Positions 30,501 to 55,736 of a stretch of DNA of 64,000 nt are shown here, one piece after another; the first letter of the stretch is position 1; each line of letters opens with the position of its first letter. Location of the stretch: positions 124,001-188,000 of the forward strand of contig NZ_JACXJA010000005.1 in assembly GCF_014705615.1 (NCBI RefSeq), in the 5' to 3' direction. Made by a program: the position numbers and the translations under genes. Below the pieces are notes generated by a model. The model did not search any database. It was not told the DNA's origin and saw nothing but the letters and a program-made list of their open reading frames with translations. Source of the stretch: Paenibacillus oceani. GTDB taxonomy: Bacteria; Bacillota; Bacilli; Paenibacillales; NBRC-103111.

Positions 30501-31194
30501 CGATATGCCAGCTCTCGAAAGCATGCGCCACACTGTCCCGGTATTCCGTGAAAGGAAGCTCGCGCTCTCGGTGCTTGTCGATCATATTTACGATCAGGTA
30601 AAGCGGCTTGCCCCATTCCTTCAGCCTTTTCGTAAAGGCGAAGTTAATCTCCGACTGGACGTGGTTATAATCCATCACATAAAAGACGACGTCCGCCATA
30701 TGCAGCGCCGATTCGGTCGCCATCATATGAGCGCTGTCCGTCGAATCGATGCCCGGCGTGTCCAGCAGGGCGGCCCGCTCTCCGAGGAACGGAATCGGGT
30801 AACGAATCTGAACCGATTCGATTTCCTCGCCGTTTTTGCAATATTCGTCCAACCGGTCCAGCTCAATCTCGGCAAATTCGCCGCTGCCCCCGCCTCTGGC
30901 GGCATGTTTGACGATCGCTCCGGCGGGGCCGTTCTGAATCGTCACGACGTTGGCGCTGGTCGGGATCGGACTCGATGGCAGGAGCTGATGCCCGCATAAT
31001 TTATTAATCAAGCTTGACTTGCCTGCGGAAAAGTGACCGCAAAACGCGATATTCAGCGCCTGATCCGCCGCTTTGCCGGCAAGCTGCTCCAGTTTCTCCG
31101 CATGATTGCGATCCCCGGCCTCGGCCATCGCCCGGCCGATCGCCCGAATGGACTTCTCTGCGTTGGTCATCCCCCGGATGTCTACTGCACTCAT
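27526..31194 (-). CDS. dynA: Double-headed bacterial dynamin-like GTPase
   Basis: A 1222-residue protein with two complete dynamin-like modules in tandem. The first P-loop is GHFSAGKSSLINKL near residue 52 with switch LLDTPGIDSTD near 140 and NMIDKH; the second is GAFSAGKSSFANSL near 640 with LVDTPGADSIN near 815. Each GTPase is followed by long helical stretches that form the stalk and membrane-binding paddle. Bacillus DynA has this two-headed form and similar length; it tethers and fuses membranes, helps repair membrane damage and limits phage lysis. The ATG at 31194 follows GGGGAGATAGG. It is monocistronic with its own terminator. Confidence 0.93.
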   Translation of the reverse strand: MSAVDIRGMTNAEKSIRAIGRAMAEAGDRNHAEKLEQLAGKAADQALNIAFCGHFSAGKSSLINKLCGHQLLPSSPIPTSANVVTIQNGPAGAIVKHAARGGGSGEFAEIELDRLDEYCKNGEEIESVQIRYPIPFLGERAALLDTPGIDSTDSAHMMATESALHMADVVFYVMDYNHVQSEINFAFTKRLKEWGKPLYLIVNMIDKHRERELPFTEYRDSVAHAFESWHIEPDGILFTSVKQPDHPNNEWVKLARLIGDLSGIADMLRDNSLAKSVVHLIGEHGVWLSEYNEAAKMALREQFEREGGEGLPERYESLEVRIEERKNAGEKLQNELRKETAHLLENANITPATTRDLAHHYLQSRKPGFKAGLFARASTTAKEIESRLSAFSSEFVEKVEANIVWHLRQLLIQTGEPYGIGPEAVDEALSRTVRSIGEEWLSGQVQAGAIASNEYTLNYSRQIAAEAKTIFRRAGFELIGDIVRVLSSRADREVFELTQEKEQLAERLTAYRQLQALETEERLHAESLLVRFPERAPDLAGKLPDPQSYTTDETRQGTAQAEGEHGSASSSGERWSVALGKETEQGYKADGSGDGSFRATMAHTASKLNEACALLEPIPSMQSIVRSMKEKSERLAQSNFTIALFGAFSAGKSSFANSLMGESVLPVSPNPTTAAINKIMPPTDAWPHGAVKVQMKSADAIREDVLYSLNVLGVQAADLDSALSQIDRLSPDRVGPSGKPHYTFLKAVGKGWSEAKDIIGTQLRVDLEMFRAYVAEESKSCFVEYIELYYSCPLTDQGMILVDTPGADSINARHTGVAFNYIKNADAVLFVTYYNHAFSQADREFLLQLGRVKDSFELDKMFFLVNAADLAASEQELSGVVGHVADNLLRYGIRNPRIYPVSSLMALDGKLQRDAALAANSGIVRFERDFVRFAVGELAGIAVRSAGQELERSASLLGQWIAGAREGEEQRKRRLEIVRESWKQAAVLLQDSDTATEEREIGKEIQELLYYVKQRLTYRYGELFQYAFNPASLREDAGAIRSSMRAAWMDLLRLISYDLSQELYATTLRIENQLNRLAQKRQADKISQISSLLDGFEGGSYEALPFRTPNVEEAMEASADDKWLAGFYKNGKHFFEGPGKSQLKESLEKTLTQPVADYAERHRALFESEYAAAYRERVGAVQERLYLLLNEHAEGMVAALEMKVDLARLASTREKLQSLMNA

Positions 31195-40412: not shown

Positions 40413-43400
40413 TTATGATTTGGCCACGCTGTAAAATTTGACGTCGTCGATGTACACTTCGACAGGCTCGATACTGGATACAAGGACGATCAATCGTGCT
40501 TGCCTGACCTGCTTACCGCTGAGGATCTGCGGAATTTCTCCGTCCAGACGCGCCTCCAGCCATTGAGATTCCGCATCCGCAATAGAAGTGACCGGGGAGC
40601 GCACCGTGCTGAAGTTGATCCATTCTCCCTGGTCGTCAAGCAGATCGAAGCCCCATTGGATGCTGCCGGCCGTGTTCCCGCCCTGCGGAATATGGTAACG
40701 GAAGCTCATGCTTGCCAGCCCTGGCTCTACGGCGATTACCTGGCTGGGGCCGCCCCATCCTTTCCCGTACACCTCCATGCTGACTGTACCGGCAAAGGCC
40801 GTCCCTTCCGCCCGCCGAACGGAACGGGTCGATGTGGAACGCGACAGCAGCTCCCATGGCGGAGCCGACTCGTCGCCGTCCTCGAAGGATGGATTCTGCA
40901 CCGCCGACTGGAGGGACAATGCCTGCAGCATCAGCGCGGCGTACTGTCTGCCCTCGGGCGAAGGATGCGTCGAGGCCAGCTCTGACGCCCGAAGCCGCAC
41001 CGGCCCGCCGGTATTCTCCTGCTCCCTCATGTAATCGACCAGTGTCCAAAACTCCGGCGCATTCCAACCGGACCAGATGAGCTGATTGAACTTTCTCGCA
41101 TCCATCTGCTGCAGAAGGGCCGGATTCGACTTGAAATCGTCCAGGAGCGCGAACCGCTTCCCGGCCATCTCGATCCGCTCCCCGAACAGCTCGACCGAAT
41201 GCTCCAGGAGGGCAAGCGCCGAAGACGTTTCTGCCGGCCGCTCGCCGATCCGCGGATAGCTCAGAGCGGACGCTTCATAATACTCGAAGGCACGCAGGAG
41301 CAGATGGGCCCTTGCCTTCTGCGGAGCCGTTTCCGCAGAGGCGACAACGGCTTCCAGCCATTCGCGGCTAAGCGATAGGTCTTCCTCCGTGACCGCATTC
41401 AAATAACTAGGGTCGGCAAAGTTTTGATAAATGGTGCCGGGCAAAAACCACGGCTCGAGGATGGCGCGCTGCGTCCAAAAGTTTTCCCAATACTCGTAAT
41501 ATACCTTCAGATACGTCGCCGCCGTCACGCCGACCGCGCGCGAATACCATTCCTGCTGCAGCGCCTCGACGTCTTGTTCGGGATTCCAGAGCAGCTTGGA
41601 CGCCACCCATGCCTTCGGCCCCTCGCCCCAATTCGGATACAGCTCGGCGTAATACGAGCCGATTCCTTGCTCGTGCGCATGCAGGAGCGTTTCCGCCATT
41701 TGGTGTGGGTACACGCGGGGAACGAGATACGGGCTGCCGTAAATGTAATCGTAGTAGCCGATCTGGCCAGCCGCCTGCAGCCAGCTTTCCTCTTCCGCGT
41801 AGCCGAGAGTTTTGGCGTCCGGATCGACCCAAGCCATCCGGTCCTTGGTTAGAAAAGGAATGACACGCGGGTTCAGCGGAAACGACGGTGGACGGATGAC
41901 CGACTGATAGGCGAGAAGACCGAACCATTTGTCGGGGTAAACGGCCAACACTCGCTCCACGACCTGATTGACCCAATTGTAGTAGACCGGAATCGGATCG
42001 CTTTCACAGTAACCGTTCCCGTCGTTGATCCCGAGCGAGTACGACTGCGCATCCAGGTTGTTCTGAAAATAAGCCAAAATTTCCACGACGGCCGCGTCCA
42101 CCGTATCGGGATTCGAGAAGCACGGCTGCCATCCGGAGATCGAATTCGCCGCAGGCGGCTGCCCGTTCGGATAAAACTCCGGATGCGTCGCCCCGAATTT
42201 GGACACCGCAAACAGGTTGTACATATTGTGATGGAAGCTGACGGGAGCGTTATAAAACCCTTGCAGCTTGTTTTGCTGCGCCCATAGGTGCAACTGCTGG
42301 TACACATCCGCACCGTTGTCCGGCTTCCCGTGCAGCGGACTAAACACCCGGAATCCGAAGGCCGGTTGTTCCCGGACGATGGTCCGACCCGCCGACAAGT
42401 CGCTTATTTTCGGCACATCCTCGCCGTTTGGTCCCGGCATCAGCCAACGAATATTGGCATATCGTTCCAGAAAACTATATACGCCGTTCACCGTCCCCCA
42501 GACGGTGGTACCGGCGATCGTAACTGTTTGGCCTTGCGGGTAGATAACGAACCCGTCGCCGTCCAAGTCGGCGAGCAGTGCATCAAGCGCGGGCGCGTTT
42601 CCGTAGACGCTATCCGTCGTGCCGATACGAATGACGACTTGGTCCGGCCCGCCGCCCCCGCCAGCCCCGGCACTGTATTCAGGCTCGGTCATGATCGGCA
42701 GAAGCGCGCCCGTCGATTTCCGCACGTAGTCGACCAGCGTTTCGGCCGGCCCTCTCCTGACCGGAGTTAGCGGTTCGAAGCCCGGATTGGCCAGCGGCAC
42801 CTCGTTCCCGGTGACCGACCTCAACCGGATATCGTCAAAATAAACGGTTGCCTGCGGGATGCCGGTATAAAGTCCCGCAGCGGCATAAGCGGCCTGTGCG
42901 GGCGCTGTCCCCGTTACGGACGCCTCGGTCCAGAAGGCGCCGGTTCCGGTTACCCGGAGCCAGGGCTGGCTGCCGATACGCGCCTTGTTCTGGTCGTAAT
43001 ACCGGATAAAGATTTGCGGATCGTCGCCTGATTCGCGATACACCATCGCAGAGACGGTGTAGGTTTCGCCTCCGCTGATCTCGACGAGATCGCTTAACAC
43101 CCCGTAGGCGGAGCCGTCGTCATCGTTGAAGTGCAGGCTGTAATTGCCCGTATGGCTGACGGCATCGGTCACGGCAATGTTGCCGGTCCCGTACGCCTGC
43201 GTCCACCCGCGAATACCGTTCGGTACCGGTCCGGGGGCCGTCTCGTCCGGATAAACCGTATCGTCGACGACCACGACCGCATTCGCCTGTCCGTCTAACA
43301 CGATGTCCAGCGAGGATGCTCCTTGGTTCTCCGGGGGGGAGACTGCGGCTATCCGGTCAAGCGCCGGGGGATGCGGCTCTGCGCCGCCGCCATTCGTCCT

Positions 43401-43610
43401 CTGTTGCTCCCCCAAATTCAAAGTCGTTCCGTCCCGATTCATTCTCACGTCCCCTTCTGCAGCGAAGGCGGACTCGCCTTCCGCCTGGCGGCCGCTTCCG
43501 TAAACCATACCGTTTGCCGGGAAACCGCCGATCGGCAGGCCCGCGGCCAATATTGCCAAAATGAGAAGCTTTGCCCACATGCGCCGGGCATTCCGGTTGC
43601 CAACATTCAC
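40413..43610 (-). CDS. Large secreted DUF4838 protein with carbohydrate-binding modules
   Basis: A 1065-residue protein. Signal peptide about 1-33 (LLILAILAAGLPIGGFPANG). A CBM-like beta-sandwich at about 95-265 (NYSLHFNDDDGSAYGVLSDL; TVYFDDIRLRSV) precedes a GH67-type N-terminal region (about 280-400; TVWGTVNGVYSFLERYANIRWLMPG when split) and a DUF4838 TIM-barrel-like domain (about 400-750; FHHNMYNLF, SLGINDGNGYCESDP, VNQVVERV). A second CBM-like sandwich is at about 920-1062 (NPSFEDGDESAPPW; VEVYIDDVKFYSV). DUF4838 proteins resemble alpha-glucuronidases but their activity is not established as far as I know. It starts at GTG 43610 after GGGGGAGG, 25 bases downstream of the SBP1 gene, so it is the second gene of that operon. 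Confidence 0.85.
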   Translation of the reverse strand: MNVGNRNARRMWAKLLILAILAAGLPIGGFPANGMVYGSGRQAEGESAFAAEGDVRMNRDGTTLNLGEQQRTNGGGAEPHPPALDRIAAVSPPENQGASSLDIVLDGQANAVVVVDDTVYPDETAPGPVPNGIRGWTQAYGTGNIAVTDAVSHTGNYSLHFNDDDGSAYGVLSDLVEISGGETYTVSAMVYRESGDDPQIFIRYYDQNKARIGSQPWLRVTGTGAFWTEASVTGTAPAQAAYAAAGLYTGIPQATVYFDDIRLRSVTGNEVPLANPGFEPLTPVRRGPAETLVDYVRKSTGALLPIMTEPEYSAGAGGGGGPDQVVIRIGTTDSVYGNAPALDALLADLDGDGFVIYPQGQTVTIAGTTVWGTVNGVYSFLERYANIRWLMPGPNGEDVPKISDLSAGRTIVREQPAFGFRVFSPLHGKPDNGADVYQQLHLWAQQNKLQGFYNAPVSFHHNMYNLFAVSKFGATHPEFYPNGQPPAANSISGWQPCFSNPDTVDAAVVEILAYFQNNLDAQSYSLGINDGNGYCESDPIPVYYNWVNQVVERVLAVYPDKWFGLLAYQSVIRPPSFPLNPRVIPFLTKDRMAWVDPDAKTLGYAEEESWLQAAGQIGYYDYIYGSPYLVPRVYPHQMAETLLHAHEQGIGSYYAELYPNWGEGPKAWVASKLLWNPEQDVEALQQEWYSRAVGVTAATYLKVYYEYWENFWTQRAILEPWFLPGTIYQNFADPSYLNAVTEEDLSLSREWLEAVVASAETAPQKARAHLLLRAFEYYEASALSYPRIGERPAETSSALALLEHSVELFGERIEMAGKRFALLDDFKSNPALLQQMDARKFNQLIWSGWNAPEFWTLVDYMREQENTGGPVRLRASELASTHPSPEGRQYAALMLQALSLQSAVQNPSFEDGDESAPPWELLSRSTSTRSVRRAEGTAFAGTVSMEVYGKGWGGPSQVIAVEPGLASMSFRYHIPQGGNTAGSIQWGFDLLDDQGEWINFSTVRSPVTSIADAESQWLEARLDGEIPQILSGKQVRQARLIVLVSSIEPVEVYIDDVKFYSVAKS

Positions 43611-43635: not shown

Positions 43636-44991
43636 TTATTGGTTTTTCAGCTCCGCGATTTTTTTGTCCGCCCGCTCCTCGGCTTCCCGGAGCGCCGTAT
43701 TCGTATCTTTCCGGCCGCCGACGACTTCGTTGAACGCTTGGATCAGCTCAGCCCTTGCCGCAATGTAGTACTTGTCCTTCACATTCATTTCGCCGTAGTT
43801 GGGCGGAACGAGCGCCTTGGCGTTCTTTCCTTTCAGCTCCGGAATGCCGCTGCCGAGCAAATCCATATAATCGGCCTTTTGCAGCGGCGGCGTAAATCCG
43901 TTTTTCACCTGATCCCGCTGGATGTCGTCTGAGAGAAGCTGGGTGACCGCCGCAAACGCTTCTTCCCGGTGCTTGCTGCCGTTTGCGATCAAATAATAGC
44001 GCGTGCTGGGCTGCGGTCCTTCCTTCGGCGCGTTTTTGAAGGCGGGAAACGGCGAGATCTCCCAGTTCAGATCCCATTTCTCGCTGGCCGCGCGGACGCC
44101 GGCATCGTTGATGCCGAGCAAGATCGCCGCCCGCTTTTCCTTCAGGAATAAATCTCTCGACTTGCTCAGGCTCGTCAGCAAGGCGGGGTCCGGAATATCC
44201 GGAAGCATGGTGAAAAGTGGCACGGTCCGGTCGAACTTTCGTTTCCAATACTCGCTGTTCAACGTGGCCTTCAAGTTTTTCGCATCCACATATTGGGGCG
44301 CACGCTCGTTCATATCGAGCAGTGCGATAATATCTGCGGCGAAGCCGTAATATTGCATGCCGCCGTCGGACCGGGTAAGCTTTTTCGACGTTTCCAATAT
44401 GTCTTCCCACGTCATCTTGTCGTTCAAATAAGGTACGCCGAACTTGTCGAACAAGTCCTTGTTGTAATACAGCGTATACGAGCTCACTCGGCCGGGAAGT
44501 CCGAGCACCTTGCCGCCGGCCAACTGTTTCATCATATCGATCGTAACCGGGATGAACCGGCTCAGATTGTAGTTGTGCTTCTTAATCAGATCGGAAATAT
44601 CCGAATCGAGACCCACGTCGATGACTTGCTGCAGGTCGGGAGACGAAATAATAATATCGATCGGCGTTTTTGCCGCGACGATATCCCGCAGAGTGGTCCC
44701 CGTCCCCGGCAGCATATAGTTGAACTTGAAATTCGGATACTTCTTCTGAATGTACTGCCCTTCCGAGCTCATAAATCCTTCGTAATTGCCGCCAAGCAGC
44801 GAATATACGGTCAACTCTACCTCTTTGTTCGGATCGACCGCCTCCGCCGTTTTTCCGGTTTCGCCGGGCAGAACCGGCTCCCCGGCTGTTCCCCCGCCGC
44901 CTCCTTCTTTGCCGCAAGCGGCCAATAGCAACAATGCCGACATCGCCGCCGCGCCAAGCCACCTTTTATTCGTTCCGCTCATCTTCGACAT
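43636..44991 (-). CDS. Extracellular solute-binding lipoprotein, family 1 (SBP1)
   Basis: A 451-residue ABC-type sugar-binding lipoprotein. Lipobox LLAAC at about residues 21-25; a Gly-rich tether follows; then the bilobal domain with VELTVYSLLGGNYEGFMSSE, TPIDIIISSPDLQQVIDVG, YTLYYNKDLFDKFGVPYLND and STRYYLIANGSKHREEAFAA. It is a close paralogue of SBP2 at 52303-53661 throughout its length. No ABC permease or ATPase gene for sugar uptake is near, so it is an orphan binding protein in this window. Start ATG 44991 (GAGAGGGG immediately before it) or ATG 44982. It heads an operon with the DUF4838 gene, driven by a promoter with adjacent AraC-type half-sites. Confidence 0.92.
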   Translation of the reverse strand: MSKMSGTNKRWLGAAAMSALLLLAACGKEGGGGGTAGEPVLPGETGKTAEAVDPNKEVELTVYSLLGGNYEGFMSSEGQYIQKKYPNFKFNYMLPGTGTTLRDIVAAKTPIDIIISSPDLQQVIDVGLDSDISDLIKKHNYNLSRFIPVTIDMMKQLAGGKVLGLPGRVSSYTLYYNKDLFDKFGVPYLNDKMTWEDILETSKKLTRSDGGMQYYGFAADIIALLDMNERAPQYVDAKNLKATLNSEYWKRKFDRTVPLFTMLPDIPDPALLTSLSKSRDLFLKEKRAAILLGINDAGVRAASEKWDLNWEISPFPAFKNAPKEGPQPSTRYYLIANGSKHREEAFAAVTQLLSDDIQRDQVKNGFTPPLQKADYMDLLGSGIPELKGKNAKALVPPNYGEMNVKDKYYIAARAELIQAFNEVVGGRKDTNTALREAEERADKKIAELKNQ

Positions 44992-45067: not shown

Positions 45068-45097
45068 ATTATAGCGGTCCGCATTTTTCTCCAACAA
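45068..45097 (-). promoter_or_regulatory. Promoter of the SBP1 operon
   Basis: On the minus strand TTGTTG (45092-45097) and TATAAT (45068-45073) are separated by 18 bases. Its -35 is directly preceded by a GTCATGA half-site. The SBP2 promoter has the same -35, -10 and upstream element. Confidence 0.75.
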
Positions 45098-45098
45098 G

Positions 45099-45134
45099 AA
45101 ATCCTCATGACTTCATATCGGATTTTCGTTACTT
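45099..45134 (-). promoter_or_regulatory. Tandem AraC-type half-sites upstream of the SBP1 promoter
   Basis: Read on the minus strand: GAAGTCATGAGGATTT (45099-45114), abutting the -35, and AAGTAACGAAAATCCGAT (45117-45134). Their equivalent bases are exactly 21 bp apart. The second matches the consensus GTCATGAAAATACC at GT.A.GAAAAT.C. Direct repeats two helical turns apart next to a -35 are the arrangement used by AraC-family activators. The binding protein is inferred to be one of the GH31-AraC fusions. Confidence 0.6.
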
Positions 45135-45174: not shown

Positions 45175-45243
45175 AAGGACATCAAAATACCGTCTCGCAC
45201 CAAAGGTCATGAAAATACCGTCCAAGGTCATGAAGTTCATAGG
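45175..45243 (+). promoter_or_regulatory. Three direct-repeat half-sites upstream of the first GH31-AraC gene
   Basis: Half-sites AAGGACATCAAAATACCGTC (45175-45194), AAGGTCATGAAAATACCGTC (45203-45222) and AAGGTCATGAAGTTCATAGG (45224-45243). Spacings are 28 and 21 bp. The first two differ at only two positions. They lie in the intergenic region between SBP1 and the fusion gene and about 45 bp or more upstream of the fusion gene's -10, consistent with autoregulation. Confidence 0.65.
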
Positions 45244-45359: not shown

Positions 45360-48287
45360 GTGAGCAGCACCCGCGCGGCTGTAGTCGTACAAACCCCGAA
45401 CGGATTACACGTGTGCATCGAACCGATAGCGCCGCATACGTTTCATGTCCGGTTGAATCGGACAGGCCGTTTCGAGGAACCCGCTCCGCTGGCCCGTCTC
45501 GGAGTTGTCGCCCCTTCCCCTTTGCCGGTATGCTGGGAAACGAAAACGCGAGGCGAAGAAATGGACGTGAGCACGGACTCCGCCTCTATCCGGCTAGACC
45601 GCCATTCCGGACAACTGTCGCTGTACGGCGAAGCCGGAACGCTGCTCACCCGGCAAAACCGCCCGCCTCGCGTGGGCTGCGGGACACTGTCCGGTCCCGG
45701 CGGCGCTGCTGCCGGAACGTCCGAAGACGGCTTCGAGACGCAGTTTGCGCTCGCTGCAGAAGAACGCATATACGGGTTGGGCGACCAGCACGATACGCCT
45801 CTAATGAAACGGGGCTGTAAAATTTCAATATGCTTTCACGTCGGCAAAGAGGTACACGCCCCGGTCCCGCTACTCCTGTCGAGCGAAGGGTGGGGGCTGC
45901 TGATGGATACGGACCGCCGGCACGAGTTCGACGTCGGCAGTTCCTCGCCGGATGTTGTGCGGATACGCGGAAGGCGCGGGGAGCTGGCGTTTTACTTGTT
46001 CGCAAGCGACGGGCTTGCCGGATTGCTGCAGAAATACTCGGAGCTGACCGGCCCCGCGGCGCTGCTCCCCGTCTGGGCTTACGGGCTTGCTTACAACTGC
46101 AACCAGCAGACGACGGCCCGCGATATGCTTGAGGATGCGCTGAAATTCCGGCGGGAGGGCATTCCGTGCGATATGATCGGCCTCGAGCCGACCTGGATGG
46201 ACCGGCCGTTCGATTACGACGCGCCCGTCGATTGGCACCCGGACCGTTTCTACAATCCGCAGTGGCTGCCGCAAGGCGCTCACACGTTCATGGGCGCTTT
46301 GCACACGGCCGGATTCAAGCTGACCCTCGGCCTATATTTGCAGGATAACGGCGAAGCGGGGCAGCAACGCAATTTGCCCGAGGATTGGTACAATTATTTG
46401 AAGCCGTTCGTCGCACAAGGCGTGCTGGGCTTCAACCTGTGCACCAAAATCCCGGTCCGGGAGATGGCGAACGTTCCTGTTGCCGCGGACGACAGTGCTC
46501 TCGACACGGAAAACTTGCCGCATTCGACCTTGGTCGGCCGCTCGATCCGGGAAGGCTTCGCCACTCAGACCGGACAGCGGCCGATGATCTATACTCCTGT
46601 CGGGTATACCGGCATTCAGAAATATGCCGCCGTCTGGTCGGGCGGGAGGACGCGCGCCCACTTGTCCGTGCTCGGGCTCGGACTCTCCGGCATCCCGCAC
46701 ATGGCCGTCGATATGGAGCTGCACACCGCCGCGGGCATCCACTTCGGGTTTTTCCAGCCTTGGTCGAAGGTGAACAGCTGGGCGTATTGGCGGCACCCTC
46801 TTCTGCTCGACCCGGAACTGCTGCGGCTGTTCAAGACGTACGCCAAGCTCCGCTACCGGCTGCTGCCGTACATTTATTCCGCGGCCCACGTCGCTTCACG
46901 CACCGGACTGCCGATCGCCAGGGCGATGCCGCTCGTCTTCCCCGACGATCCGCACGCCGTCACACAGCAAAACCAATACATGTTCGGGGATGCCTTCCTG
47001 GTCGCGGTATTTACCGACCGGGTATACTTGCCAGCCGGGGAATGGCATGACTATTGGACCGGGGAAAAGTTCGCCGGCCCTGCCGATATCCCGTACCACC
47101 TTCCCAAGCAGGCCGGCGGCCCGCTCTTCGTCCGCGCCGGCGCGATCGTGCCGATGTGGCCGGATACGGAGTACGCAGGACAGCGGCCGCCCGACCGGCT
47201 GGAGCTGCACCTGTACCCGGGCGGCGACGGTGAATGTACGCTGTATGAGGACGACGGGAGGACGTACGGCTACTTGCACGGGGAAATGGCAGAGACGAGC
47301 ATTGTCTGCCGGGACGACGGGCGCGTCTTCAGCGCCGAGATCGGGCTTCGCATAGGCCGCTACCCCGATATGCCCGAGAGGCGGGCGTGGGACGTCGTCC
47401 TTCATACGCTTGACAAGCCTTCGGCCGTCAAGGTGGACGGCCAGTCATGGCGCGAGACGAACGGCTCTCACAAGGAACCGCCCCCGGCTTCCTGGTCGTA
47501 CTACAGAAAAACCGGCACGCTTCGGCTGCTCGTCCCCGATGCCGCCGAAAGGCAGGCCTCGCTCCGGCTCGAATTCGTCCGCTCCGACGGCCGCGAAGTT
47601 CAGCGGATGTCCGGAAGACGGCAGCGCTCGTTGCCCTGCCCGAGCAGCGACCGGCGAACGGCGGGCGAACTGGAGAAAGATATCGAGGTCGGGCTAGCGA
47701 CGGAGAGTACGGTCAAGGCGTTGTCCACGCTCGAACGCTGGTGGGCCGTGCGGATGGCCGAATCGGACTCGGTTGAAGACGTGCGCGAGCATTGGCTGGC
47801 TATGAACGGCCTGTTCGTCAGGACGGCCGAGCGGAAAGGACGGACGCTTCACGAGATCGCCGGAGGCGACCCTCTGCTCCGTACCCGGCTTCAGCCGCCC
47901 GATAACGCGGAGGATGCTTACAGCTCGCTCGCCTTTATCGCGGCGCGCCTCATCGAATACGGCAAGCGCCGCGGCGATCCACACGGCATCGTCCGTCAGG
48001 CGACTGACATCATCATGAGCGAGATCGACCAAGAGCTGTCGCTGCAAGCGGTCGCCGACCGGCTCCATCTCAGCTCCTCCTACTTAAGCCGCAAGTTCAA
48101 GCATGTTATCGGCCTCGCCTTCTCCGATTATGTGCTCGAAAAAAAGATGGAGCTCGCCAAGGAGCTTCTGCTGGCCGGCTCGACCGTCGCCGCCAGCGCG
48201 GAGCAGACCGGCTTCAAGGACACCAGCTACTTCATCCGCGTCTTTCGTAAATATTGGGGCGTCACTCCGGGGGAAATGAGGTCGTGA
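45360..48287 (+). CDS. GH31-like pseudo-glycosidase fused to YesN-type AraC regulator (copy 1)
   Basis: A 975-residue protein beginning at GTG 45360 behind GAGGAGGC. Residues about 1-215 form the GH31 N-terminal beta domain (ERIYGLGDQHDTPLMKRG); about 215-560 the TIM barrel (PVWAYGLAYNCNQ, CDMIGLEPTWMD, VNSWAYWRHPLLLD); about 560-740 the C-terminal beta domains (LELHLYPGGDGECTLYEDDG). A helical segment (about 760-875; RTAGELEKDIEVGL) of the YesN type follows, then a double AraC helix-turn-helix (about 885-973; LSLQAVADRLHLSSSYLSRK, FKDTSYFIRVFRKYWG). At the nucleophile site the sequence is GFNLCTK (Cys361 where Asp is expected), and the acid/base site WSGD reads WSGG (Gly429). There is no signal peptide. 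It is best explained as a cytoplasmic transcription factor that binds a glycoside with an inactive enzyme domain. It is close to copy 2 over its full length. Confidence 0.9.
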   Translation: MSSTRAAVVVQTPNGLHVCIEPIAPHTFHVRLNRTGRFEEPAPLARLGVVAPSPLPVCWETKTRGEEMDVSTDSASIRLDRHSGQLSLYGEAGTLLTRQNRPPRVGCGTLSGPGGAAAGTSEDGFETQFALAAEERIYGLGDQHDTPLMKRGCKISICFHVGKEVHAPVPLLLSSEGWGLLMDTDRRHEFDVGSSSPDVVRIRGRRGELAFYLFASDGLAGLLQKYSELTGPAALLPVWAYGLAYNCNQQTTARDMLEDALKFRREGIPCDMIGLEPTWMDRPFDYDAPVDWHPDRFYNPQWLPQGAHTFMGALHTAGFKLTLGLYLQDNGEAGQQRNLPEDWYNYLKPFVAQGVLGFNLCTKIPVREMANVPVAADDSALDTENLPHSTLVGRSIREGFATQTGQRPMIYTPVGYTGIQKYAAVWSGGRTRAHLSVLGLGLSGIPHMAVDMELHTAAGIHFGFFQPWSKVNSWAYWRHPLLLDPELLRLFKTYAKLRYRLLPYIYSAAHVASRTGLPIARAMPLVFPDDPHAVTQQNQYMFGDAFLVAVFTDRVYLPAGEWHDYWTGEKFAGPADIPYHLPKQAGGPLFVRAGAIVPMWPDTEYAGQRPPDRLELHLYPGGDGECTLYEDDGRTYGYLHGEMAETSIVCRDDGRVFSAEIGLRIGRYPDMPERRAWDVVLHTLDKPSAVKVDGQSWRETNGSHKEPPPASWSYYRKTGTLRLLVPDAAERQASLRLEFVRSDGREVQRMSGRRQRSLPCPSSDRRTAGELEKDIEVGLATESTVKALSTLERWWAVRMAESDSVEDVREHWLAMNGLFVRTAERKGRTLHEIAGGDPLLRTRLQPPDNAEDAYSSLAFIAARLIEYGKRRGDPHGIVRQATDIIMSEIDQELSLQAVADRLHLSSSYLSRKFKHVIGLAFSDYVLEKKMELAKELLLAGSTVAASAEQTGFKDTSYFIRVFRKYWGVTPGEMRS

Positions 48288-48397: not shown

Positions 48398-51300
48398 TTA
48401 CGGCGCCAGACGGTTAACAGAGTCAATCCGGAACGTATGCGTCCCGTTCCATGTTGTCCCCGGGAAGTAATGCAAGCGCGAAGGCCGGTCAGCTGTCACG
48501 GCTTCACTCGTATAGTCGAAGCCCGGGTCCATGTCGACCGCGATAACGGTTTCGCCCGCCGCTTCGTTGCGGGTAACCCCCGTAATCCGGTAGGCATGCG
48601 TCGTCTGATCCGGATGATCGACCACGATGTAATGTCCGGCAACCGATGGCGGTACGATGGCCGGGGTAACGAAACCGTTCGTCTCTCCCGGAAGCTGCGC
48701 GCGCAATACGCGATGGATGTCCCCCGAGAAGACACCTTCGCCGTTCAGCGTCTCGCTTCCTTTTTGCAGCAGCGTGCCGCCTGCAAGGTACATCGCCTTG
48801 ACGGCGCCGTTCTCCAGCCGGATGAAGCCCATCTTGCCGATCATCGTCAGATCGCCGGCCGTCAGCGGCTGGCCGTCGTTATCCGGAGAGCTGAGGATAA
48901 TGTCCGTGATGCTGCCGTAAGATACGGCGACGATCGCTTCCCTGGATTCCGCGTCCGATCGCAACACCTGGACATTCCCGATCTTCGGTACGGCTCCTCC
49001 GGCATAAGGCTCGATGACGTGAACGAATTGACTGCTCAGATCCGCGCCTTCTTTGCGCAGCACGAATTTGGGCATCGTATAGGCGACGGCCTGCGCATTC
49101 GTATCGGCGCTCAGGCCGGTTACGCGCGTCGCTCTCAGCGAAGGCGCTTCGCCGATAAACAACCGGTTGTCGCCCGCCCCGGCGAAGCCGAACACCTTCA
49201 TGCCCGCAAGATCTGCATTGCCGCTGCTCGTCGTCATCGTCAGCTTATAGGAACCTCCCGGCACATCGGCGGTTTGGACATCGCGTACGTAAATGTAGCC
49301 GTAATACTGGTTGTCGCTCGTTCCGCCGGTGTCGGTCTCCTGGGCAGGGTGAATGATCGTCGGATTGCCTTCCACCAGATACGGACCGTACGGCGTAAGC
49401 GGCACATCCGCCGTGATCGCGGCATCGCGGTTCGCGTCGCCGTTCAGCGTATACTCGTGCTTCGCGCCCCCGCTTACCCGGAACAGGTCAAGCACGTACC
49501 CTTCCCCGCCGGCCGCCCCGTCAAACCCGACGAACCACGGCTCCCTGCTGTAATGGTCCAGCCCCGGATAGGCGTTCTCCTGGTGTGCCCGCATCGCTTG
49601 CACGTCGCCCGAAGCCGACAGCCGGACGAAGGCGGACAAAGTCCCTCCCCGCTTGCCGTCTTCCTTGATCGACGCATCCTTGCCGTCTACGACGACCGTG
49701 TTATGGCCCAAGGTGGATAACGTCCATTGCCGGTAAAACGTATGCGTGTATCCGATATCCGGAAGCAGCTCCTGACCTTCCGCATATAAAGCCAGGTTGA
49801 GCGGATCTTTATGATCGTGGCCGTATTTCGGCGAGAATGTCATGTACAGCTGCGACTGGCCGGCTCCTTGTCCGCGGATCAGCTTAGCGATACCGGCCCC
49901 CGGCATAAGCAGCGACGAAACGTTTTGCGGCGCCGTCGCCTTTTGGAACGCCCAAGTGTCGTTGATCGGGTAATAATAACCGTTCGGATAAGCGAGCAAA
50001 TTCGGTACGTTCAGCAAGGCGCCGAGCTGCGGCACCGATACGGACGGATCGAAGTTATCGAACCGCTGTCCGGTGATGGAGGATAAATATCCGGGAGGGT
50101 CCGTCCATCCGGCGGCGTAGCCGGTCGTACCGCGCAGGCCGTTGCTCGTCTGATTGTGATAGGACAACGTAATCTCTTTCCAGAATCCGTCCATATAAAA
50201 TCCGCTCTCGGCAAAATCGGCCATCCGCTTCACCGCTTCATGAATGTATTGCGGCTCCTTCAGCGCTTTGCCAAGCTGGATCAGGCCGATCCAGTTCGAA
50301 TATTCGATATTATGGTTCAAGGTCGGATACGAGAACACCTCCTTCAGAGACGGAAGCAGCATCCCGTCTACGATTTTGCTGCGGACATCAACTCCGGTTT
50401 CGACGCTCAGCAGCTCGAACGCGTCCGTTTTATCGACCTCGGCGAAAGCGTCGGCGAGCGGACGCAGAGCGACAAGCTCCTGCAGCGTCCATCGTTCCCA
50501 GATGCCGCCGAAATACGGGTAAGGCGGAGCGGCGCTGCCGGCCAGCGGATACTGAATCCAGACCGTATCGTTAATCCGCACCCAGCCGGGATACGCCTGA
50601 CTGAACCGGTACAGCAGCCTCGCTGCGCCGAGCGGGTCCGCCGCCGCCAGTTCCTTGGTCCGCTTCACCGCATGCTGCCGCTGATAATGCCACAAATGGG
50701 CGGACAAGAAGTACCGTTTGCCCGAGCTGTCCGTATAATACGGATACTCCACCTGCTGGCCCAGTTTGTTCGTTACCGTAAGCGTATCCGTCTCCGGATA
50801 CTGCTCGTTCGGATAATCGAGCTTCTGCGTATCCGCGGACGTAATCTTCCACGGATTGGCGGCGCTCCACGTATAGTTCGCCGAGCGGAATCCGAGCTGC
50901 GTATTGTGAGGGATGCCGGCGGCGAAAAACCCGACCTTGTCCGGAATAAGCTGCAGCAGCTGTTGCACTTCTGCAGTCGGCGGCGCGTAGGTGACCGACG
51001 TGACGGGAGCGCCCGGCGCCGGAACGCGATACATGTGTTCGCCGGCCTGGATCAGACTGTTGCGGTCGAATGAAAAGTCGGCGAGTTTGACGGCTCCGCT
51101 TCCCGGTCCGAAGGCCGCCAACTGCAGCCGGTACTGTCCGTCCTCCAGCGGCGCAGGGTGTGAGAATTCGATCGTGTAATCGGACTTGATCTTGCTCAGC
51201 GCCACATCGTCCAGAACCGTGCGTTCACCGGACGGAGTCGTCCAGACGAGACGCAGCTCGGCATGCTTTAATTGGGGAAAGCTGGACTTCTTGAACATCA

Positions 51301-52207
51301 GCACTTTCTCGCCGAAGCTTTTGAACTTCAGGCGGGGCTGCTGCGTCTGCCACGGCTCCGCCAATCCGGCCGAATCGGGAATCGGCGGTCCGGCGAGATA
51401 CAAGCTGCCCATTCGTCCTTCATTGGTAATCCCGGCATGGAGGATGAATCCCCGCTGCGCCAGCGGACGGTTGCGGTCGTCGTCGATCAGCGCCGATGTG
51501 CGGACCGGCGACCAGGCGCTCGCCGGGTGCGAGGAATCCGGCCCATAGTAACGGACCGCATTCAGCCGCAATTCGGTTCCCGGCGCAAGCTGCGGGCTAC
51601 CCAGCGCACTCCACGGGATCGTCATTTCCGCCGTCCAGCTGCCGTCCGGCTGCTTCGCCACGACAGGCGCGACCTTTTGAGTTAACACGAGATTAACGAA
51701 TGTTTGCCGGCTGTCCTGCGGGTCCTGACCGGTCCAGTTGTTGAAGTTGATCGAGACGGGATGCGAGTCGGTCGTGATGTTGACGGGAATCATGTAGTAC
51801 TTATACTCGTCATCCGGCGTGCCCAGCAGCACAAATACCCGTTCCGCCTGCGGCGCCGCATCATAGCCGAGCGGGCTTTGCAGCGCAATATACAAGTTTT
51901 CGGCATCATAAACGGCTTTCATGATCGTATCGCGCTCCGCCGGCTGCACGTCGAAAAACGTGCGGAACTGCCCCATCCCGGGCGCTCCCGCCCATGCGGC
52001 CTCGTTCAGCAGCCCGTCGGCCGCAATCGCCCCGCCGCCGAGCGGCAAGGCAATCCCGAAGCGGTCATCCAGCAGCTCAACATCCGGATAGGCGTCCGGA
52101 TCGGGAACCTGATTGGCGGCATACAGGCCGGGCACAGCGGCGGCAAGCAGCACGATCAGGAACAGGATCGACCAAGCCGTCTTACCGTCGCGAATAAGCT
52201 TTATCAT
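48398..52207 (-). CDS. Secreted CBM9-like/heparinase II-III-family protein
   Basis: A 1269-residue protein with a signal peptide (about 1-31; SILFLIVLLAAAVPGLYA). A CBM9/DOMON-like sandwich is at about 50-245 (AADGLLNEAAWAGAP; WTAEMTIPWSALGS), an Ig-like segment at about 285-385, a helical toroid at about 430-790 (HLWHYQRQHAV; NHNIEYSNWIGLIQLGKAL), and the heparinase II/III beta domain from about 790 (MTFSPKYGHDHKDPLNLALY; TLSTLGHNTVVVDGKD). The GHDHKD and GHNTVV histidines are those usually found in heparinase II/III and PL15/PL17-like lyases. It should cleave an acidic or amino-sugar polysaccharide outside the cell. It begins at ATG 52207 after GGAGTGAT and is cotranscribed with SBP2. Confidence 0.85.
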   Translation of the reverse strand: MIKLIRDGKTAWSILFLIVLLAAAVPGLYAANQVPDPDAYPDVELLDDRFGIALPLGGGAIAADGLLNEAAWAGAPGMGQFRTFFDVQPAERDTIMKAVYDAENLYIALQSPLGYDAAPQAERVFVLLGTPDDEYKYYMIPVNITTDSHPVSINFNNWTGQDPQDSRQTFVNLVLTQKVAPVVAKQPDGSWTAEMTIPWSALGSPQLAPGTELRLNAVRYYGPDSSHPASAWSPVRTSALIDDDRNRPLAQRGFILHAGITNEGRMGSLYLAGPPIPDSAGLAEPWQTQQPRLKFKSFGEKVLMFKKSSFPQLKHAELRLVWTTPSGERTVLDDVALSKIKSDYTIEFSHPAPLEDGQYRLQLAAFGPGSGAVKLADFSFDRNSLIQAGEHMYRVPAPGAPVTSVTYAPPTAEVQQLLQLIPDKVGFFAAGIPHNTQLGFRSANYTWSAANPWKITSADTQKLDYPNEQYPETDTLTVTNKLGQQVEYPYYTDSSGKRYFLSAHLWHYQRQHAVKRTKELAAADPLGAARLLYRFSQAYPGWVRINDTVWIQYPLAGSAAPPYPYFGGIWERWTLQELVALRPLADAFAEVDKTDAFELLSVETGVDVRSKIVDGMLLPSLKEVFSYPTLNHNIEYSNWIGLIQLGKALKEPQYIHEAVKRMADFAESGFYMDGFWKEITLSYHNQTSNGLRGTTGYAAGWTDPPGYLSSITGQRFDNFDPSVSVPQLGALLNVPNLLAYPNGYYYPINDTWAFQKATAPQNVSSLLMPGAGIAKLIRGQGAGQSQLYMTFSPKYGHDHKDPLNLALYAEGQELLPDIGYTHTFYRQWTLSTLGHNTVVVDGKDASIKEDGKRGGTLSAFVRLSASGDVQAMRAHQENAYPGLDHYSREPWFVGFDGAAGGEGYVLDLFRVSGGAKHEYTLNGDANRDAAITADVPLTPYGPYLVEGNPTIIHPAQETDTGGTSDNQYYGYIYVRDVQTADVPGGSYKLTMTTSSGNADLAGMKVFGFAGAGDNRLFIGEAPSLRATRVTGLSADTNAQAVAYTMPKFVLRKEGADLSSQFVHVIEPYAGGAVPKIGNVQVLRSDAESREAIVAVSYGSITDIILSSPDNDGQPLTAGDLTMIGKMGFIRLENGAVKAMYLAGGTLLQKGSETLNGEGVFSGDIHRVLRAQLPGETNGFVTPAIVPPSVAGHYIVVDHPDQTTHAYRITGVTRNEAAGETVIAVDMDPGFDYTSEAVTADRPSRLHYFPGTTWNGTHTFRIDSVNRLAP

Positions 52208-52254
52208 CGTATCACTCCTTCAACTATGGATGATCCGGCCGGCTCCTGCTGTCA

Positions 52255-52295
52255 CTTCCGCAGCGATGACCGCTGCCGGCGCTTCGCTGCGGAAG
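52255..52295 (-). repeat. Stable intercistronic hairpin between SBP2 and heparinase 1
   Basis: CTTCCGCAGCGA (52255-52266) and TCGCTGCGGAAG (52284-52295) are perfect 12-bp arms with a 17-base loop, 7 bases after the SBP2 stop. No T-run follows. Such hairpins after binding-protein genes commonly protect the upstream mRNA or partly terminate transcription, giving more binding protein than enzyme. Confidence 0.75.
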
Positions 52296-52302
52296 AAGAA
52301 GG

Positions 52303-53661
52303 CTACTTGTTCTTCAATTCCTCGATCTTTTTGTTCGCGCGCTCCTCCGCTTCGCGAAGCGCCGTATTGACGTCCTTCTGGCCGCCGGCCGCCTGGTTGA
52401 ACGAGGCGATCAGCTCCGCCCTTGCGGCGATATAATATTGATCCTTCACATTCATTTCCCCGTAGTTCGGCGGGACGAGCGCCTTTACATTTTTCCCCTT
52501 CAGCTCGGGAATGCCGCTGCCGAGCGAGTCGATGTAACCGATCTTTTGCAAGGGAGGCGTTGCCGCCGCCGCAACCAGTTCCTTCTGAATGTCGTCGGAT
52601 ACGAAATGGGTAATAGCCGCAAAAGCTTCTTCCCGGTGCTTGCTGCCCGAAGAGATCAAATAGTAGCGGGTGCTCGGCTGAGGTCCTTCTTTCGGCGATC
52701 CTTTAAAGGAGGGAAACGGCGCAATATCCCAGTTCATATCCCACTTCTCGGCGACCGCCCTGGTGCCGGCGTCGTTGACGCCGATCACGATCGCCACATT
52801 TTTGTCCTTGGTAAACATCGACCTCGATTGGGTCAGATTCGTCAGCTTGGGCACAAGCGTTTTGTCGGAGACGATGTCGTAGAGCGGAAGCGTCCGGTCG
52901 AAGATCCGCTTCCAATAATCGGTGTTGAGCGTCGCCTTGACCGTCTTCGGATCGACGTATTGCGGAGCGCGCTCATTCATGTCCAGAAGCGAGATAATAT
53001 CTCCCGCGAAACCGATGTACTGCACGCCCCCCTCGACCCGGGTGAGCCGTCTGGCCGTCTCCAGAATATCTTCCCACGTCATCTTGTCATTCAGATACGG
53101 CACGCCGAACTTATCGAACAGATCCTTGTTGTAATACAGCGTGTACGAGCTTACCCGGACGGGAAGACCGGGCACCTTGCCCCCGGCGATCTGCTTCATC
53201 ATGTCGATCGTAACCGGGATGAAGCGGTTCAGGTCATAGTTGTATTTCCCGACCAGATCGGAAATGTCCGACAGGAGCCCGACGTCGATGATCGGCTGCA
53301 GGTCCGGGGTCGAGATAATAATATCGATCGGCGTCTTGGACGTAACAACATCGTTCAGCGAGGTGCCGGGCCCGGGCGCGATAAATTTAAATTTGAAATT
53401 GGGATATTTCCGCTGGATATACTTTCCTTCCGACTCCATAAATCCTTCATAATTGCCGCTTAGCATCGAATAAACCGTCAATTCCGCCACTTTGTTCGGA
53501 TCGACCGGCTCCGCCTTGACACTGCCGGGAGCTTTCGTCCCTTCCGGCGTCTTCTCCGGCTGCACCGCGTCTCCTCCGCTTTTGCCGCATCCGGCCAATA
53601 GCAGAAATGCCGCTGTCGCCGCCGCCGTCGTACCGATCCACGCTTTGTTCCTTTTTCTCAT
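52303..53661 (-). CDS. Extracellular solute-binding lipoprotein, family 1 (SBP2)
   Basis: A 452-residue lipoprotein: signal peptide with lipobox LLLAGC (Cys near 25), a charged tether, then the two-lobed sugar-binding fold. Shared blocks with SBP1 include AELTVYSMLSGNYEGFMESE, SSYTLYYNKDLFDKFGVPYL and ALVPPNYGEMNVKDQYYIAA. The lobe regions around residues 85-120 and 240-300 differ most, which may change the ligand. The ATG at 53661 follows GAGAGGGGC. First gene of an operon with heparinase 1. No permease gene is present in the locus. Confidence 0.92.
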   Translation of the reverse strand: MRKRNKAWIGTTAAATAAFLLLAGCGKSGGDAVQPEKTPEGTKAPGSVKAEPVDPNKVAELTVYSMLSGNYEGFMESEGKYIQRKYPNFKFKFIAPGPGTSLNDVVTSKTPIDIIISTPDLQPIIDVGLLSDISDLVGKYNYDLNRFIPVTIDMMKQIAGGKVPGLPVRVSSYTLYYNKDLFDKFGVPYLNDKMTWEDILETARRLTRVEGGVQYIGFAGDIISLLDMNERAPQYVDPKTVKATLNTDYWKRIFDRTLPLYDIVSDKTLVPKLTNLTQSRSMFTKDKNVAIVIGVNDAGTRAVAEKWDMNWDIAPFPSFKGSPKEGPQPSTRYYLISSGSKHREEAFAAITHFVSDDIQKELVAAAATPPLQKIGYIDSLGSGIPELKGKNVKALVPPNYGEMNVKDQYYIAARAELIASFNQAAGGQKDVNTALREAEERANKKIEELKNK

Positions 53662-53774
53662 TTCGGCTTCGCCCCTCTCAGGTTACTGTTGGTTGGAACG
53701 GGCGTGCTCCGCATATCCCATCATATCGGGAAGTTTTGTCGCTTGGTAACGTTTTCACCCGTTCGTTGCTTCCG

Positions 53775-53803
53775 ATTATACGGACTGCCCGTAAGCCCAA
53801 CAA
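53775..53803 (-). promoter_or_regulatory. Promoter of the SBP2 operon
   Basis: On the minus strand TTGTTG (53798-53803) and TATAAT (53775-53780) are separated by 17 bases. A GAAGTCAT half-site directly precedes the -35, as at SBP1. Confidence 0.78.
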
Positions 53804-53807
53804 GAAA

Positions 53808-53838
53808 GCTTTATGACTTCGGATAGTAATTTGATTGC
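53808..53838 (-). promoter_or_regulatory. Tandem AraC-type half-sites upstream of the SBP2 promoter
   Basis: Minus-strand half-sites GAAGTCATAAAGC (53808-53820) and GCAATCAAATTAC (53826-53838) have equivalent bases 21 bp apart. The distal one matches GTCATGAAAATAC at 9 of 13 positions. The layout relative to the -35 equals that at SBP1. Confidence 0.5.
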
Positions 53839-53881
53839 CTCTCGGCGCCTTCTGCACCCGAATTTGCCAAATCCGGACGAC

Positions 53882-53921
53882 AAGGTCATGAGAATACCAT
53901 TACATGTCATCAGACTTGCTT
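53882..53921 (+). promoter_or_regulatory. Tandem AraC-type half-sites upstream of the FAD oxidoreductase gene
   Basis: AAGGTCATGAGAATACCATT (53882-53901) and ACATGTCATCAGACTTGC (53903-53920), with their GTCAT cores 21 bp apart. The first copy matches the best half-site at the other locus at 17 of 20 positions. Confidence 0.65.
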
Positions 53922-53948
53922 ATCCCGGGCCCGGTTCCAAGCTACCAT
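53920..53948 (+). promoter_or_regulatory. Weak, probably activator-dependent promoter of the FAD oxidoreductase gene
   Basis: TTATCC (53920-53925) and TACCAT (53943-53948) are separated by 17 bases. Both are poor matches, but the distance from the nearest GTCAT core to the -35 (14 bases) equals that at the SBP promoters. Chosen partly by this geometry. Confidence 0.35.
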
Positions 53949-53985
53949 GAATAAGAATTCACTATCCACCCTGGAGGTATGTAGG

Positions 53986-55581
53986 ATGATACATGAAATG
54001 AAAGCGGACATCGTCATTATCGGGGGGAGCCTGGGCGGCTGCGCCGCCGCGCTCGCCGCCGCAAGACTCGGCAAAACCGTCGTGATGACCGAAGAAACGG
54101 AATGGATCGGGGGACAATTGACTAGTCAGGCGGTTCCTCCCGACGAGCACCACTGGATTGAGACGTTCGGATGTACGGCCAGCTACCGGCAGTTCCGCAA
54201 CGGAGTCCGCAATTATTACCGGCAGCACGTTCCGCTTAGTCTAGAGGCGGCGGCGCTCCCCCATTTCAATCCGGGCAACGCCAAAGTGAGCCGGATCAGC
54301 CACGATCCGCGCGTCGCCCTCGCTGTATTGCTGGAAATGCTGGCTCCGTACACGCTATCCGGCCGGGTGGTCGTCCTAACCCGCTGCCGCCCCGAATCGG
54401 CCGAGACGGACGGGGACCGCGTCCGTTCGGTCACGGTGCGGCATAGCCTGACGGACAGCCGGACGGTGTTGTCCGCGCCTTATTTTCTGGACGCGACCGA
54501 TTGCGGGGATCTGCTGCCGCTCACCGGTACGGAATATGTCACCGGAGCGGAGTCCCAGTCGGAGACGAACGAAAGACATGCGCTGGTAGGACCGGCCAAT
54601 CCGCAAGACATGCAGGCCATTACGCACTGCTTCGTCGTCGATTATCTCGAAGGCGAGACACATACGATCGACAAGCCGAACGATTACGCCTTCTGGCGTT
54701 CGTACCGTCCCGACTTTTGGCCCGATCAGTTTCTCAGCCTCTCTGGCGTCCGGCCGTCCACGCTCGAACCGGTCCGCTACGATCTGTTCCCGGGCAAGCA
54801 AGGGCTGACGTTCTGGGAAGGGTTCTCGCTCGTCTCTTACCGGCGTCTGGCAGACAAAACCTTTTTCGCTGACGGCACGTTTGCGGGCGATGTGACGGTC
54901 GTCAATTGGCCGCAGAACGATTACTTTCTCGGCTCGATCATCGATGTCGACGAAGCGGAAAAAGCCCGCAATCTGCAGCGGGCCAAGGAACTCAGCCTAT
55001 CCTTGCTTTACTGGCTGCAGACGGAGGCTCCGCGTCCGGACGGCGGCTGCGGTTACCCCGGATTCCGGCTGCGCAGGGACGTATTCGGCACCGAGGACGG
55101 GATGGCCCTGTATCCGTATATTCGCGAGTCACGCCGGATCAAGGCGGAATTTACGCTGCTGGAGCAGCACGTCAACCCGCTGGACCGTCCGGACGGCCGC
55201 GCGGAGACGTTCGCCGATTCCGTCGGAATCGGACACTACGGGATCGACCTTCATCCGAGCACGGGCAACCGACACTATATCCACCTGTCTGCCCTGCCGT
55301 TCCAAATTCCGCTCGGCAGCCTGATTCCGATCCGGATGAACAATTTGCTGCCTGCTTGCAAAAATATCGGGACGACGCATGTTACGAACGGCTGCTACCG
55401 GCTGCATCCGGTGGAATGGAATATCGGCGAAGCCGCCGGCGCTTTGGCCGCCTTCTGCCTCGACCGCGGCGAAAGCCCGCGTGCCGTGCGGAATAACGCA
55501 GCGCTCCTGGAGGAGTTCCAGCACGTCCTGCAATCGCAAGGAGTCGAGCTCGCCTGGCCGGAGCCTGCCGTCTCCCGCTGA
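53986..55581 (+). CDS. FAD-dependent oxidoreductase (FAD_oxidored family)
   Basis: A 531-residue soluble flavoprotein. The N-terminal dinucleotide-binding fold is ADIVIIGGSLGGCAAALAAA near residue 8, with the ribose-binding acidic end of strand 2 at MTEETEWIGGQ and the second conserved LDATDCGDLLPLTG near 165. The C-terminal motif NLLPACKNIGTTHVTNGCYR followed by EWNIGEAAGALAAFC closes the FAD site. Members of this group are often encoded with glycoside hydrolases and polysaccharide lyases and are presumed to oxidise sugars or derivatives; the substrate is unknown. The ATG at 53986 has GGAGG 8 nt upstream; an ATG at 53947 has none. It lies 155 bases upstream of GH31-AraC copy 2 and divergent from SBP2. 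Confidence 0.85.
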   Translation: MIHEMKADIVIIGGSLGGCAAALAAARLGKTVVMTEETEWIGGQLTSQAVPPDEHHWIETFGCTASYRQFRNGVRNYYRQHVPLSLEAAALPHFNPGNAKVSRISHDPRVALAVLLEMLAPYTLSGRVVVLTRCRPESAETDGDRVRSVTVRHSLTDSRTVLSAPYFLDATDCGDLLPLTGTEYVTGAESQSETNERHALVGPANPQDMQAITHCFVVDYLEGETHTIDKPNDYAFWRSYRPDFWPDQFLSLSGVRPSTLEPVRYDLFPGKQGLTFWEGFSLVSYRRLADKTFFADGTFAGDVTVVNWPQNDYFLGSIIDVDEAEKARNLQRAKELSLSLLYWLQTEAPRPDGGCGYPGFRLRRDVFGTEDGMALYPYIRESRRIKAEFTLLEQHVNPLDRPDGRAETFADSVGIGHYGIDLHPSTGNRHYIHLSALPFQIPLGSLIPIRMNNLLPACKNIGTTHVTNGCYRLHPVEWNIGEAAGALAAFCLDRGESPRAVRNNAALLEEFQHVLQSQGVELAWPEPAVSR

Positions 55582-55669
55582 TCGCCCGGGGCCGGTGCTT
55601 CCGGCCGCCAATCAGACTGACCGGCAGCGATGCCGCGTAAGGCTCCCCTCCCTGCACGGCTCCGGATTA

Positions 55670-55678
55670 TGCTAAAAT
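55670..55678 (+). promoter_or_regulatory. Extended -10 promoter of the second GH31-AraC gene
   Basis: TG-C-TAAAAT followed by GTAGAAAAC, nearly the same as the element before copy 1. No GTCATGAAAATACC half-site lies nearby, so this copy may be expressed constitutively or by read-through from the FAD gene. Confidence 0.5.
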
Positions 55679-55736
55679 GTAGAAAACCAGAAGCAGGGCC
55701 GATCCGTCTTGACCCGGCTCATCCGAGGGGGCATCC

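Follow-up and report, generated by a model that had tools for sequence, protein, structure and literature searches.

What would a bacterium do with a protein that starts as a glycosidase and ends as a transcription factor? The question is raised by an open reading frame at positions 45360–48287 (+ strand) of the window, by which we mean the whole 64,000-nucleotide stretch of DNA from the soil bacterium Paenibacillus oceani that was analysed. The frame is single and unbroken, runs from a GTG start at 45360, preceded by AGGAGG, to a TGA at 48287, and encodes 975 amino acids. The initial annotation had read it as a complete GH31 glycosidase domain joined to an AraC/YesN DNA-binding domain, in effect a response regulator whose receiver had been replaced by a glycosidase fold, and had proposed that it is a one-component sugar sensor. 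The protein divides into three parts:

45360–47585, + strand: GH31 pseudo-glycosidase domain (residues 1–742), from Pfam, alignments to solved structures, fold search and alignment of the catalytic site
47586–47990, + strand: linker (about residues 743–877), first disordered and then helical, homologous to the YesN response regulator linker
47991–48284, + strand: AraC/XylS-type double helix-turn-helix (HTH; about residues 878–975), an HTH_18 domain that matches solved AraC-type domains

Every Pfam match in the protein exceeds its curated cut-off. Gal_mutarotas_2 at residues 18–191 corresponds to the GH31 N-terminal sandwich; the GH31 TIM barrel is recovered in two stretches, the best at 388–508, and is followed by the GH31 C-terminal domain (516–597, 6e-19) and DUF5110 (614–683). 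With a beta-sandwich, barrel and C-terminal domains present in order, the protein belongs to the GH31 fold family, and the double HTH of ∼100 residues (HTH_18 at 899–974, 2.9e-19; 69.6 bits against a cut-off of 33.6) with its C-terminal signature places it in the AraC/XylS family as well. Pfam detects no cupin-type AraC_binding sensor domain, the GH31 fold standing in its place, and no Response_reg match, so the protein does not qualify as a receiver protein with a phosphoryl-accepting Asp. No signal peptide or membrane segment is apparent.

Structure prediction agrees with this division. An AlphaFold2 model built from 35 fusion sequences has a mean pLDDT of 84 and a pTM of 0.73, with a poorly ordered stretch (744–764, pLDDT < 50) between the GH31 part and the linker helices (768–871). 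In a fold search with the model GH31 enzymes rank first, led by the dextranase FjDex31A (6jr6; E 1.8e-55, TM 0.76 on target) and then CjAgd31B. The HTH matches the solved AraC-type domains 3lsg (YesN), 2k9s (AraC) and 1bl0 (MarA). The C-terminal ∼205 residues, linker and HTH together, are 42–46% identical to the linker–HTH of 530-residue REC–YesN regulators from the same family, and both of the relatives scanned by Pfam (L025 and L038) carry a Response_reg domain. Because linker and HTH are homologous to those of REC–linker–HTH regulators, the picture of a glycosidase substituted for the receiver is close to literal. The architecture is thus shown: a GH31 fold without catalytic aspartates is fused to an AraC-type DNA-binding domain through a YesN-type linker.

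The fusion is not peculiar to one assembly. Orthologues 78–84% identical to it occur in P. ginsengarvi, P. mesophilus and P. hemerocallicola with the frame continuous across the junction, and the junction is also unbroken in paralogues at 35–67% identity. In total we found 40 distinct proteins with the same unbroken GH31–AraC architecture. The window's own genome contains ten intact fusions and one decayed copy (C19) with an internal TGA, and one of the intact copies lies in the window itself:

55737–58649, + strand: second pseudo-GH31–AraC fusion, 970 aa, 67% identical to the first, with Cys also at the nucleophile position

Two outcomes had been named as refuting the fusion, a frameshift at about 47640–47700 that would split it into two genes and the absence of the architecture from relatives; the first failed against the unbroken orthologues and paralogues, and the architecture is present in all three named species. 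The initial annotation therefore held on the fusion itself, supported by the single frame, the Pfam domains, the fold match and these relatives, and almost literally on the replaced receiver.

Within the Paenibacillaceae, 8 of the 105 genomes searched have a family match. Each of the four Paenibacillus species of the clade has at least ten matches, mostly fusions, and four further genera of the Paenibacillaceae contribute members (G007, G016, G102 and, truncated, G062); another species of the same genus, G008, gave no match in this search. Outside the family no fusion was found among 200 genomes sampled from the order and 299 from the phylum, both partial samples, where matches at E ≤ 1e-90 look, by open-frame length, like ordinary GH31 genes of ∼800 aa. 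A wide distribution of the fusion was rejected on these samples, partial as they are, and as found the fusions are restricted to the Paenibacillaceae. A partial GH31 frame adjoins one fusion (L089:10039-11067), and in the window's genome a fusion at L095:6277-8310 has decayed and carries an internal TGA; these suggest a family that is gaining and losing copies.

We then asked whether the glycosidase could still be an enzyme. The fused domains are most closely related to stand-alone GH31 proteins (∼750–810 residues) from the same genomes, whose genes often adjoin a fusion. Catalytic positions were fixed by aligning a profile of seven of these end to end with FjDex31A (6jr6) and with its D412A mutant, 6jr8. 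The aspartate of the stand-alone FK(L/M)D motif falls on the FjDex31A nucleophile D412, the residue changed in 6jr8, and that of the WAGD motif falls on the acid/base of FjDex31A WSGD. All seven keep both residues. In the window fusion the nucleophile site reads GFNLCTK, with Cys361 at the catalytic position, and the acid/base site reads WSGGR instead of WAGDT, with Gly in place of Asp. The protein therefore lacks the Asp nucleophile and Asp acid/base of an active GH31 enzyme; the second fusion in the window also has neither, and activity was rejected for both copies.

The same holds across the family. The nucleophile Asp is lost in 34 of 36 fusions, replaced by Ser, Cys, Ile, Pro, Val, Thr or Leu; an Asp close to the acid/base position is seen in two of the 36 at most, and no fusion combines the two residues. 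All fusions also lack a loop containing EQD that never varies among the stand-alone proteins. Proteins found after this rule had been seen obey it, with both aspartates in three of three stand-alone enzymes (L113, L138 and L144) and neither in four of four fusions (L141, L142, L143 and L145). The final tally is 10/10 closest stand-alone GH31 proteins with both catalytic residues against 0/40 fusions; a plain Fisher test gives 1e-10, which is too optimistic given the relatedness of the proteins, although the separation is complete. Loss of the catalytic residues is shown, and that the domain is a pseudoenzyme is inferred from sequence alone. The initial annotation's “complete GH31” thus held in part, for the domains and not for the active site; the catalytic death, the 40-member family and the second copy in the same window had gone unnoticed.

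Two fusions, L071:6463-9573 and L073:6788-9823, keep the nucleophile Asp without the acid/base, and a third, L017:1375-4374, has the acid/base Asp but not that of the nucleophile. These may be intermediate stages of catalytic loss. In the tree the stand-alone group is placed inside the fusions. Either one or two changes of state are compatible with it; a single change is obtained in 18% of bootstrap trees.

Loss of catalysis has not been accompanied by loss of constraint. The GH31 part is shown to be under purifying selection between species (dN/dS 0.16–0.26), about as strong as that acting on the HTH at locus 1 and more stringent than on the linker, and residues invariant in the stand-alone group are on average ∼73% kept in the fusions. 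A GH31 pocket without its nucleophile can bind sugar, as 6jr8, by its title the FjDex31A D412A mutant with isomaltotriose, still holds its ligand. Which sugar that would be here cannot be deduced, because some classical GH31 active-site residues differ even in the stand-alone relatives.

The likely target of the fusion protein lies next to its gene. The relevant genes of the window are:

43636–44991, − strand: SBP1, an extracellular solute-binding lipoprotein (SBP_bac_1, 6.7e-20, Pfam), the divergent putative target gene
40413–43610, − strand: secreted DUF4838 protein (DUF4838, 7.2e-41, Pfam), probable second gene of the target operon
52303–53661, − strand: SBP2, 69% identical to SBP1, the probable target of a second operator
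48398–52207, − strand: heparinase II/III-like gene following SBP2

The first fusion gene stands back to back with the sugar-type SBP1 gene, and the SBP–DUF4838 order beside the fusion is kept in the orthologous loci of four species, so that gene order too is shown. Both SBP1 and the DUF4838 protein begin with signal-like sequences. Of 36 fusion loci, 26 have a divergent gene as their nearest upstream neighbour. SBP genes occur as neighbours more often than any other type, others being beta-helix pectate-lyase-like proteins, GFO/IDH/MocA oxidoreductases, and GH109-like and heparinase II/III-like proteins. Regulator (67%), SBP (69%) and operator have been duplicated together at 52303–58649. The larger duplicated module, window 48398–62406, comprises SBP2, heparinase II/III-like proteins at 48398–52207 and 58624–62406 (52% identical to each other), an FAD-dependent oxidoreductase at 53947–55581 and the second fusion. 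Neither SBP gene has permease genes alongside, and the two proteins therefore probably share a transporter encoded elsewhere. Elsewhere in the window, 27526–31194 (− strand) encodes a 1222-residue protein with two dynamin-type GTPase stretches.

The intergenic DNA contains operator-like repeats and promoters:

45177–45193, + strand: operator-like repeat GGACATCAAAATACCGT, conserved in orthologues
45205–45221, + strand: operator-like repeat GGTCATGAAAATACCGT, the sole perfect match in the 8-Mb genome
45226–45242, + strand: operator-like half repeat GGTCATGAAG..., 21 bp from the GGTCATGAAAATACCGT repeat
45117–45133, − strand: distal activator-type repeat AGTAACGAAAATCCGAT, on the SBP1 gene strand
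45096–45112, − strand: proximal repeat AGTCATGAGGATTTCTT, 21 bp from the distal repeat and overlapping the −35 box by 2 bp
45068–45097, − strand: SBP1 promoter TTGTTG-N18-TATAAT, conserved; one match in the window, 0 expected
53802–53921: second operator, with repeats at 53802–53818 (−), 53823–53839 (−), 53884–53900 (+) and 53905–53921 (+) and an adjoining promoter TTGTTG-N17-TATAAT

AraC at araI1/I2 binds 21-bp direct repeats of which the proximal one overlaps the −35, and the fusion loci show the same layout. At all eight loci compared (two paralogues in each of four species), the proximal repeat on the SBP strand begins 15 bp before TTGTTG-N17/18-TATAAT and overlaps the −35 by 2 bp; its distal partner, a further 21 bp upstream, is recovered by the scan at six of these loci. 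A further group of repeats at these loci is oriented the other way and lies nearer the fusion gene. The initial annotation had pointed to 45175–45243 as candidate target DNA, and this segment does carry direct repeats conserved in orthologues; beyond it, the second pair at 45096–45133 is the one that overlaps the neighbouring promoter's −35. The operator geometry is shown, and by sequence it is that of an AraC/XylS regulator, a direct-repeat operator overlapping the −35 of a neighbour. Binding of the protein to this DNA is inferred, no protein-binding data being available.

The motif GGTCATGAAAATACCGT at ≤ 2 mismatches occurs at four sites in the 8-Mb genome. A genome-wide regulon was rejected on this count, and because three of the four sites are at the window's two fusion loci the regulon looks local. 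An operator common to all fusions was not found in 15 more distant divergent regions. There 21 bp is the best repeat offset, but the signal is weak (mean 9.7 of 16 matches versus 8.6, sd 0.34; 9.5 without the window); versions with separate operators would give such a result, which nevertheless falls short of proof. The motif has also not been tied to the fusion experimentally, and another AraC-type regulator could conceivably use it.

The reading that we consider likely is that the fusion acts in the cytoplasm as a one-component, AraC-like activator whose dead GH31 pocket receives an imported oligosaccharide, although no ligand, DNA-binding or expression data exist. In this model the secreted enzymes of the operon would release oligosaccharides, which the SBP would hand to an importer. 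The imported sugar, probably a product of those enzymes, would occupy the former active site uncut and switch the linker–HTH between DNA-binding states, and a dimer contacting both repeats would recruit polymerase at the SBP promoter and activate the SBP–DUF4838 operon. The paralogue at 55737–58649 would do the same for the SBP–heparinase-like operon. Autoregulation or looping may be the role of the second repeat pair, which lies closer to the fusion gene and faces the other way. Sugar binding, the ligand and the direction of regulation are all inferred. The sensor reading first proposed for this protein is supported by every test run, and loss of catalysis strengthens it; binding of a sugar has not been demonstrated.

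Among the alternatives, the one that survives best, although unlikely, is that the GH31 part serves for docking or oligomerisation and senses the state of the active GH31 enzyme or of a transporter, not free sugar. Pseudoenzymes often work through protein contacts, and some fusions adjoin an active GH31 sibling (L067, L068, L073, L076, L084, L085 and L087). However, no such sibling lies beside most fusions, including both in the window, and residues shared with the stand-alone relatives are well conserved, at an average of 73% for columns invariant in those relatives. A trigger enzyme that still cleaves or transglycosylates sugar while regulating is much harder to sustain. The GH31 fold is mostly retained, two of 36 fusions (L071 and L073) keep the nucleophile and L017 still has the acid/base Asp, but no fusion of 40 has both residues, both window copies have neither, and the EQD-containing loop of the stand-alone relatives is gone. 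An even less probable reading is that the GH31 part is an inert relic in front of an HTH that regulates constitutively: catalytic residues are lost and one copy in the genome has decayed (C19, internal TGA), whereas purifying selection on the GH31 part is similar to that on the HTH at locus 1 and exceeds that on the linker, and tens of full-length copies have been kept. An artefact, two genes merged by frameshift or assembly error, has no support and is excluded, because the identical unbroken junction is seen in four species assembled independently and in tens of paralogues.

The preferred reading, a sugar-sensing activator, can be set against known systems. The YesN/AraC response regulators (REC–linker–HTH_18) are homologous to the fusion over the ∼205 residues of linker and HTH, but have a receiver where the fusion has a GH31 fold. 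The AraC/XylS sugar regulators, such as E. coli AraC and MelR, share the DNA-binding domain and the divergent target gene; their sensor is a cupin of ∼150 residues instead of a GH31 domain of ∼740, and motif and operon differ. The GH31 enzymes (FjDex31A, 6jr6; CjAgd31B, 4b9y) and the stand-alone relatives share the fold and full-length domain order, whereas the fusion has lost the catalytic Asp pair and one loop and been joined to a regulator. Bacteroidetes hybrid two-component systems and SusR are, as we propose for the fusion, local oligosaccharide sensors that control polysaccharide-use loci, but they are membrane-bound and their sensor domains are unrelated.

Enzyme folds have been recruited as sensors before. 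AdpA, GbdR and CdhR are AraC regulators with enzyme-derived GATase1/DJ-1-like N-terminal domains, and the ROK/NagC and SorC/DeoR regulators derive from sugar-binding enzymes. These provide precedent for an enzyme fold as the sensor of a transcription factor, although the folds differ from that of the fusion, and to our knowledge none of these enzyme-derived regulators uses a glycosidase fold. The claim that no characterised regulator has this design stands as far as we could establish: no GH31–AraC or other glycosidase–AraC regulator is described in the open-access literature searched, subscription papers and preprints being outside its scope. The novelty lies in the unusual sensor and its unusual expansion, since enzyme-derived AraC sensors as such are already known. 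A 596-residue frame at L067:13657-15447 joins ECF sigma factor domains (26–170) to SBP_bac_1 (211–494) with no obvious membrane segment between them, and may be another regulator with a fused sugar-binding sensor.

A bolder version of the sugar-sensor model, which we consider more likely than not, is that the fusions form an expanded class confined to this lineage. About ten regulators of one design per genome would recognise glycans in their dead GH31 pockets without hydrolysing them, each suited to a different oligosaccharide and each controlling the uptake locus that it adjoins. If the model is correct, this would be, as far as we found, the first glycosidase fold to serve as the ligand-binding part of a transcription factor, and a clear case of catalysis lost with a regulatory role kept, for which the active-looking stand-alone siblings in the same genomes provide a natural control. 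The family offers tens of natural sensors of ∼970 residues whose pockets come from enzymes of a well-studied structural family, and ligand prediction, pocket swapping and sugar biosensors therefore become testable. The fusions could also help to assign functions to the many unassigned polysaccharide loci of the Paenibacillaceae, and would point to a new means by which bacteria could detect complex sugars and induce the corresponding genes.
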